From: Verrucomicrobiia bacterium
GTDB taxonomy: Bacteria > Verrucomicrobiota > Verrucomicrobiia > Opitutales > Cerasicoccaceae
NCBI GenBank assembly: GCA_030425485.1
Contig: JAUIAM010000013.1
Location: 1-64,000 of the forward strand
DNA length: 64,000 bases
Reading direction: 5' to 3'
Shown: in pieces, positions 1 to 59,413 of the stretch
How the letters are laid out: each line of letters opens with the position of its first letter
How positions within the stretch are numbered: position 1 is the stretch's first letter
Translations under genes and position numbers: made by a program
Notes under the pieces: model-generated
The model's input: only the letters and a program-made list of their open reading frames with translations
Databases searched by the model: none
Told to the model about the DNA's origin: nothing

Positions 1-101
1 GGCTTTCGAAGTGGTGTGAATCCAGATTCATGAACTGAGAAAACGGAAAAAGACGCGAAAAGACCCTTTTCTCCCGACCTTGATGAATTTGAAGACACGA
101 C
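1..101. repeat. MITE-like element, family A, copy 1 (left part cut by window edge)
   Basis: Near-identical to 20056..20212 and 55151..55307; ends in AATTTGAAGACACGAC followed by CTAG (102-105). Confidence 0.85.
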
Positions 102-105
102 CTAG

Positions 106-20012: not shown

Positions 20013-20055
20013 TATAGCGACATCTCAGGCTACGGTTTTATTTAAATAGCTCTAG

Positions 20056-20212
20056 GGTGTGTCTTCAAATTAAGAAACGAGGGAAAAAGAGGTAATTTTG
20101 AGGATTTTTTCGGCTTTCGAAGTGGTGTGAATCCAGATTCATGAACTGAGAAAACGGAAAAAGAGGCGAAAAGACCCTTTTCTACCGACCTTGATGAATT
20201 TGAAGACACGGC
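20056..20212. repeat. MITE-like element, family A, copy 2 (157 bp)
   Basis: GGTGTGTCTTCAAATT ... AATTTGAAGACACGGC, flanked by CTAG at 20052-20055 and 20213-20216. Confidence 0.92.
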
Positions 20213-20262
20213 CTAGGCGAAAACGCGACTCCCTGCGGCTTTCCGTGAGCTAAGGTATTCCC

Positions 20263-54891: not shown

Positions 54892-55150
54892 GCAGTGCCC
54901 TGTCTGCGGTGCGCCCGTACCTGCCGGAGCCTACGCCTGCCCCGAGTGCGGAGCCGACGAGCGATCCGGCTGGAACGAAGAAGCCACGCGCTACGATGGT
55001 CTCGACCTACCCGATTCCTGCTTCGAAGAAGAGGCACCCGCAAAGTATGGACAACAGCAAGCTAAACGCGGCCTCGGCAAACACCGGGTGCTGATCGCTC
55101 TCGTGGCAATCGCCACGCTCCTGGCCTTTTGCCTGACGTTCGTGCTTTAG
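54878..55150 (+). CDS. Zinc-ribbon, single-TM small protein
   Basis: CPVCGAPVPAGAYACPECGADERSGWNEEATRYDGLDLPD; C-terminal TM; 14-nt overlap with upstream GT. Confidence 0.75.
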   Translation: MKTPEQCPVCGAPVPAGAYACPECGADERSGWNEEATRYDGLDLPDSCFEEEAPAKYGQQQAKRGLGKHRVLIALVAIATLLAFCLTFVL

Positions 55151-55307
55151 GCTGTGTCTTCAAATTAAGAAACGAGGGAAAAAGAGGTAATTTTGAGGAT
55201 TTTTTCGGCTTTCGAAGTGGTGTGAATCCAGATTCATGAACTGAGAAAACGGAAAAAGACGCGAAAAGACCCTTTTCTACCGACCTTGATGAATTTGAAA
55301 ACACGGC
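55151..55307. repeat. MITE-like element, family A, copy 3 (157 bp)
   Basis: GCTGTGTCTTCAAATT ... AATTTGAAAACACGGC; left flank TTAG, right flank CTAG. Confidence 0.92.
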
Positions 55308-55331
55308 CTAGGCGTCGCCTGCAAGCGCGAG

Positions 55332-59002: not shown

Positions 59003-59211
59003 CCGCCCAGCGCATACGTTGGTCGGTACACATCAGAGGCTGGGGCTTTCTGGCAATGCCCACGCCGTTTCCCCAGCCTCGCCCTCCTTCTTTCAGCTTT
59101 AGCGTAGACACGTAGCTGACGGGACGTTATCAGGTTTCACAGACTTACTTTCCGCCCGCATTCAGAGTTGCAGTCGATGCGTTACAGTCATGTGCGTTCG
59201 CTGCCACCTAG

Positions 59212-59370
59212 GGCGTGTCTTCAAATTATGGAGCGAGTCCGCGCAGGTTGGTTTTGAGCATGTTTTTTGGCTTTCGAGGTGAGGCGAATCAAGATTCGTC
59301 GAGCCGAGGAAACGAAAAACGGGCCAAAATCCGGCCAAGTGGGCGACGTGAGATAATTTGAAGACACGGC
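59212..59370. repeat. MITE-like element, family A, divergent copy 4 (159 bp)
   Basis: GGCGTGTCTTCAAATT ... AATTTGAAGACACGGC; CTAG at 59208-59211 and 59371-59374. Confidence 0.88.
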
Positions 59371-59413
59371 CTAGGGCGAGCACCTGTTTAACCACGTCCT
59401 CCTCCCTACGATT

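Follow-up and report, generated by a model that had tools for sequence, protein, structure and literature searches.

The window, the whole 64,000-nucleotide stretch of DNA that was analysed, contains four copies of a short repeat, all of them intergenic, which an earlier note on this DNA had placed at 1–101 (cut by the window edge), 20056–20212, 55151–55307 and 59212–59370, flanked by CTAG and in one instance by TTAG. All four are present at these positions and with these flanks. That note gave a length of about 157 bp; the ends are better placed one base further out on each side, giving 159 bp (20055–20213 and 55150–55308) or 161 bp (59211–59371), because the inner G and C of the flanking CTAGs behave as part of the element and TA alone behaves as a duplication. 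The three copies that had been described as more than 90% identical (1–101, 20056 and 55151) are 97–98% identical to the reference copy and make up subfamily A. The first of these (1–102, forward strand) has lost its 5′ part at the window edge, is followed by TAG, corresponds to positions 58–159 of model R1 and shares 97% identity with the 20056 copy along 105 bp. The second (20055–20213, forward strand; 134 bits) is complete including the terminal G and C, with the putative TA duplication at 20053–20054 and 20214–20215, and is bounded by the terminal inverted repeats (TIRs) GGTGTGTCTTCAAATTA on the left (20056–20072, forward strand) and GCCGTGTCTTCAAATTC on the right (20196–20212, reverse strand). 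The third, also complete (55150–55308, forward strand; 128 bits), is 97.6% identical to the copy at 20056 and is flanked by TTA on the left and TAG on the right. The remaining copy (59211–59371, forward strand; 161 bp with the terminal G and C, 161 bits, DNA fold z-score −6.2) represents a separate subfamily B with 72% identity to the subfamily A reference, and is the top match in the genome to the order-wide model described below. The ends of the element read GGCYGTGTCTTCAAATT, and the TIR core GTGTCTTCAAATT, with up to two mismatches, occurs seven times in the window compared with 0.9 expected, a count reached in none of 100 shuffles.

The earlier note had proposed searching the genome for further copies. 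In the draft genome (3.81 Mb in 62 contigs), a subfamily A query returned 40 scored matches, mostly 94–100% identical, and TIR ends together with their TAG were found 73 times, compared with zero for a reversed control pattern. At least 29 contig ends fall inside a copy, so the true copy number is probably higher than the 40 matches, and the position of copies at these ends makes the element relevant to genome assembly. The assignment to MITEs without a transposase holds: the element spans 159–161 bp with TIRs of about 17 bp, a length that contains no transposase ORF, and its near-identical copies are dispersed at non-orthologous sites, with no orthologous positions common to different genera. 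Recent activity, also suggested previously, is supported both by the high identity of these roughly 40 copies and by an orthologous site free of the element. At this site, compared between species, the orthologue in a genome of the same genus (G001) ends in ACCATGGCC-TAG without an element, here ACCATGGCC-TAG is followed by the element, and the protein of the orthologue pair ends at the same residue. Judging from this alignment of occupied and empty site, the element appears to have landed on a native CTAG stop codon and to have left the stop intact.

CTAG targeting, in line with the earlier note, is supported by the flanks: among 67 elements with TA central in both flanking tetranucleotides, 44 have CTAG on either side. 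Departures from CTAG in these 67 elements affect the outer bases 24 times versus five times for the inner bases (p = 0.0005), as expected for a YTAR target with duplication of TA and with an inner G and C that form part of the element. These flank statistics favour TA within YTAR as the duplication, and the asymmetry argues against a 4-bp duplication of CTAG, which is less likely. The subfamily of G009 has flanks of the form CTNAG. Flanks could be read for 15 of its copies, and in 11 of these the left and right N agree, as they do in the single copy of G008, which points to a TNA duplication.

CTAG itself is five times rarer in the window than expected (46 sites against 229). In 49 of 121 cases, an open frame of 100 codons or more has its stop codon directly next to the element, a frequency that control CTAG sites do not reach (33 of 176; p = 6e-5). 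The figure of 49/121 is an upper estimate, some of the stop-abutting ORFs being antisense artefacts (for example, the right one of L163), and control sites were scored alike. By a crude ORF-based assignment, the flanking genes are convergent in 37 cases versus divergent in 10. In the mechanism that we propose, insertion takes place at YTAR, mostly CTAG, and would duplicate TA, as the flank statistics suggest; CTAG is rare in the genome and often overlaps TAG stops, and since it is palindromic and TA would be duplicated, a TAG stop would survive on either side, so that insertion at a stop would be harmless and copies would accumulate in 3′ flanks as well as between genes that converge. Such a CTAG/stop-codon target would be how an element of this kind can multiply with little gene damage.

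The earlier note had also advised looking for a transposase carrying the same ends. Matching IS ends are present in relatives and elsewhere, but this draft genome yielded no intact IS whose ends agree exactly; all it yielded was an edge-cut transposase on contig C28, where the ends differ, and another on C12 that is degraded. A search of 84,980 genomes for the TIR plus CTAG marked, besides Verrucomicrobiota, MITE-like elements in cyanobacteria and Loigolactobacillus and one IS in Saccharibacillus (L078, 1255–2094), which spans 840 bp, has matching ends at CTAG and carries two overlapping ORFs with DUF4096 and DDE_Tnp_1 in a domain search. The IS5-type transposase remnant on C28 was used to look for related ISs within the order; the ends of these ISs sit at CTAG, and several match various MITE ends. 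The IS whose ends come nearest to the present TIR measures 879 bp and is from G008, of the same family (L286; CTAG followed by GTAGTGTTTTCAAATTA); its 250-aa transposase, like those of L273 and L276, was typed as IS5 by similarity to the C28 transposase. The G003 MITE end GCCGCGTGGACAAAATAC agrees at 16 of 18 positions with the IS end that this genome carries on contig C28, the G005 MITE end GCCGTTTCTTCAAAATCA with an IS end in G009 at 17 of 18, and a further G003 MITE end, GTCGTGTACGCAAACCTC, with an IS end in G002 at 16 of 18. All ISs found with matching ends carry an IS5-type transposase, and on these sequence comparisons the IS5 family (IS427-like) is well supported as the mobiliser class. 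As a first step of the mechanism, IS427-like IS5-family transposases supplied by full ISs would act on the ~17-bp TIRs, as the matching ends suggest.

IS630 elements prefer CTAG and duplicate TA, and given a TA duplication within CTAG, which the flank statistics favour, the repeats could be read as an IS630-type (Tc1/mariner-like) MITE. We consider this very improbable: PF13358 (DDE_3) is absent from this genome, for which reason an IS630 mobiliser was rejected, the transposase is of IS5 type in every IS with matching ends, and the G009 subfamily apparently duplicates TNA, as is known for IS5-family groups.

Regarding the two transposase remnants of this genome, the one on C28 (L039, 1448–2118; G000:C28) is cut by the contig end, and its IS end, CTAG followed by GCCGCGTGGACAAAATGG, adjoins a 94-bp MITE variant; the end of a G003 MITE (L155) is nearly identical to it. 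The one on C12 (L060, 1480–2150; G000:C12:11611–12209) has its DUF4096 and DDE_Tnp_1 pieces in different frames and is apparently fused with a helix-turn-helix gene.

Relatives of the source genome are labelled Verrucomicrobiota/Verrucomicrobiia, with G005 (JAUIHT) in the same family and G031 (JAKPNF) in the same order, which is probably Opitutales. Of 177 genomes of the order, 18 gave the element with a first covariance model, and a second model added three genomes and one family, bringing the distribution to 21 genomes from seven families of the order. Of the elements fetched, 42 are 159 bp long and nearly all measure 157–162 bp; outside the order, G338 contains a convincing 162-bp hairpin with the flanks GCTA and TAGC. 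Model matches in G312 and G384, from another family of the phylum, were not counted, their right flank being conserved beyond the match, which probably makes them part of a larger repeat; these weak matches (L252, L253, L258, L259, L267 and L268) have the right flank CCAGTCACAGCCCGC and probably belong to a distinct family of larger hairpin repeats.

Several further elements were seen alongside this survey. At a contig end in another genus (L069, 2384–2495; G005:C12), 112 bp are 99% identical to subfamily A, which suggests recent horizontal spread or a chimeric contig end; mis-binned DNA of the source species was rejected, since the flank matches only in short pieces with 69–93% identity and hence belongs to another organism. 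Pelagicoccus mobilis has a 263-bp element with the same TIR, GCCGTGTCTTCAAATTAG, and a branched fold (L077, 3529–3791). In unrelated bacteria, namely Loigolactobacillus (L071, L075, L084 and L085) and cyanobacteria (L062, L068 and L080), there are MITE-like elements of about 100–155 bp whose ends are nearly CTAG-GNYGTGTYTTCAAA.

The earlier note had reasoned that positions conserved across relatives would indicate a structural element. What is conserved is structure and length, not genomic position: in a flank comparison, flanks were alike only at a paralogous, domain level, with the exception of two pairs, one of near-duplicates within G119 and another in genus g33, and the elements were therefore rejected as conserved loci.

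The predicted fold of a single copy is a long, imperfect hairpin (RNA z-score −4.3; DNA z-score −6.2), and elements in other genera have equal length and the same fold with a different sequence. When ten sequences are aligned with plain MAFFT, 92.7% of the cells are paired and 30 of 49 pairs have changed on both sides, with a covariation score of 0.514 compared with 0.206 for shuffled alignments and at most 0.18 for slid structures. With 75 sequences, in an alignment fitted to the covariance model and thus leaning towards it, two-sided change extends to 48 of the 49 pairs and the score rises to 0.699 versus 0.208. A single unbranched hairpin was obtained for 94 of 101 elements. Tandem G.A mismatches in a YGAR context form sheared pairs in RNA and DNA, and the hairpin tip contains two tandem 5′-GA/5′-GA mismatches separated by a covarying 3-bp helix; in the copy at 59211 (tip 59276–59307, forward strand), the outer GA at 59276–59277 faces 59306–59307 and the inner GA at 59281–59282 faces 59301–59302, with the helix between them. 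These mismatches are kept in 32 (inner) and 30 (outer) of 34 sequence clusters defined at 80% identity, and GA/GA accounts for 153 of the 220 symmetrical 2×2 loops in the folds. Identity between the 34 clusters is 64% in the tip, 53% in the TIRs and 50% in the outer stem. As the covariation shows, the whole element forms one long imperfect hairpin whose shape, length and tip G.A pairs are kept across the order, the terminal repeats differing meanwhile and matching different ISs.

MITEs are palindromic anyway, and DNA-level correction makes palindromes more perfect, so a covarying hairpin might be expected in an ordinary MITE whose fold is under no selection: an old family, spread vertically and horizontally in the order, in which the arms stay complementary only through quasipalindrome correction (template switching) and because both TIRs must match the transposase. 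The 99% identical copy in another genus, suggestive of horizontal spread, would agree with such a history. However, template-switch correction should remove mismatches, yet the G.A mismatches at the tip rank with the most conserved parts of the element, and neither the higher conservation of the tip relative to the TIRs and outer stem nor the steady length of 157–162 bp over seven families fits well with a hairpin free of selection, which we regard as rather unlikely. Tentatively, and with somewhat less than an even chance, we propose instead that a long-lived mobile hairpin present throughout the order exchanged its TIRs to follow different IS5-type transposases, selection having kept the ~161-bp fold and its two tandem G.A motifs. 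If true, the folded strand, DNA or RNA, would have a specific partner or function. In this last and most tentative step of the mechanism, the fold itself may be selected, most likely through single-stranded DNA or read-through RNA that adopts it, and the conserved mismatches may keep a long palindrome tolerable to the host, hence durable.

Another reading is a structured regulatory or 3′-end RNA that is also mobile, in which the hairpin, once transcribed and with its G.A pairs sheared, would serve to protect the preceding mRNAs or to terminate them. The strong covariation and the frequent location directly behind stop codons and between convergent genes (37 versus 10 divergent) are in line with this, and a review states that published bacterial MITEs are transcribed and affect mRNA stability (PMC3733652). 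However, elements abutting genes are oriented in either direction without bias (26 versus 19, p = 0.37), although the fold is strand-asymmetric, the GA strand being the more stable as DNA (−38.8 versus −29.2 kcal/mol). This lack of bias argues against one defined RNA strand in 3′ UTRs, and a strand-specific 3′ UTR RNA was rejected on this ground; with modest confidence, we favour a benefit that acts at the level of DNA or irrespective of the strand. Moreover, no match to an intrinsic terminator acts at the element end, where no T-run terminator is found, no element matches a family of Rfam 15 above the gathering score (weak miRNA matches fall outside the element), and the 3′ location is also explained by the CTAG target together with selection against insertions into promoters. 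A mobile regulatory RNA of this kind appears unlikely. The missing orientation bias and terminator also count against the proposal that the fold itself is selected.

Variant and broken elements were also encountered. A 94-bp form without the tip occurs at three places (L035, L036 and L039), so the tip may be unneeded for movement; the deletion lies between copies of a short direct repeat and may have arisen repeatedly, which leaves this dispensability unproven. Two half-elements (L037 at ~1485 and L044 at ~1544) share one breakpoint in the hairpin loop, between CATGAATCTGG and GTCC, and continue into different sequences, and a chimera (L042, 1460–1619) joins the left half of subfamily B to the right half of subfamily A at the hairpin loop, with a much poorer fold (−42.9 kcal/mol). 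These three cases would fit breakage at the hairpin tip within the cell and offer no more than a lead in that direction. An element in G003 (L057, 1499–1723) is lengthened to 225 bp by some 66 bp of additional hairpin-rich sequence next to the loop, and three G031 elements (L220, L221 and L222) have in place of their right part a common repeat of another family, which bears GGGTGCTGCGCACCC palindromes and is joined to the MITE.

MITEs are usually regarded as short-lived scraps of one IS, and the earlier note had accordingly taken these repeats for non-autonomous derivatives of an IS5-family, IS427-group element. The IS5/IS427-type mobiliser is upheld; a mere recent deletion derivative of one IS is not, given a hairpin of ~159–161 bp in seven families with about 50% identity between clusters and differing terminal repeats. 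Because fold and length are shared across the order and the TIRs are specific to subfamilies and match different ISs, this is a long-lived, structurally constrained MITE superfamily rather than just the recent remnant of one IS. Overall, the repeats are probably a non-autonomous MITE mobilised by IS427-like transposases of the IS5 family at YTAR targets, with a hairpin that is kept throughout the order and whose fold may itself be selected. No earlier description of this MITE family was found in the open-access literature searched, and the family is an unusually durable form of MITE. A MITE superfamily of fixed length with pair-by-pair compensatory change over seven bacterial families, and with TIRs that match different ISs, makes it testable whether a MITE hairpin is itself selected, and whether as DNA or as RNA.

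Among known systems, RUP, NEMIS/Correia, Nezha, YPAL and the REPINs, which depend on RAYT transposases, have other ends and targets and mostly a narrower host range. The first four are named as bacterial MITEs (PMC3733652), and all, including the REPINs (PMC3116915), resemble the present element as small, palindromic repeats for which mobilisation in trans is assumed. The IS427 group is the likely mobiliser class, consisting of autonomous elements of ~0.85 kb with which the MITE has just the ends in common; its members, for example IS1248 of the IS5 family, are described as having a DDE transposase, often encoded by two overlapping ORFs (PMC3281130). Nearest in target and IS class is MITEPsy1 of Pseudomonas syringae, which is similarly gene-less, with 18-nt TIRs, a probable IS5-type partner (ISPsy2), a CTAG or YTAA target and observed mobilisation (PMC3189936). 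It differs in its 100-bp length, its TIRs, a measured 4-nt duplication and a narrow distribution, and an order-wide conserved fold is not reported in the text consulted (PMC3189936). Nearest in architecture, the aspect compared, are the ERIC/IRU/RU-1 repeats of Enterobacteriaceae, and ERIC (127 bp) is also a short palindrome with a stable stem-loop, many intergenic copies in several genera, a TA duplication and no coding capacity (PMC2759123). Sequence, length and hosts are different, and an IS5-type partner or a CTAG preference is not stated for ERIC in the text consulted (PMC2759123); the fixed length of 159–161 bp, the tandem G.A pairs and the exchanged TIRs are, compared with ERIC, features of the present MITE's own.
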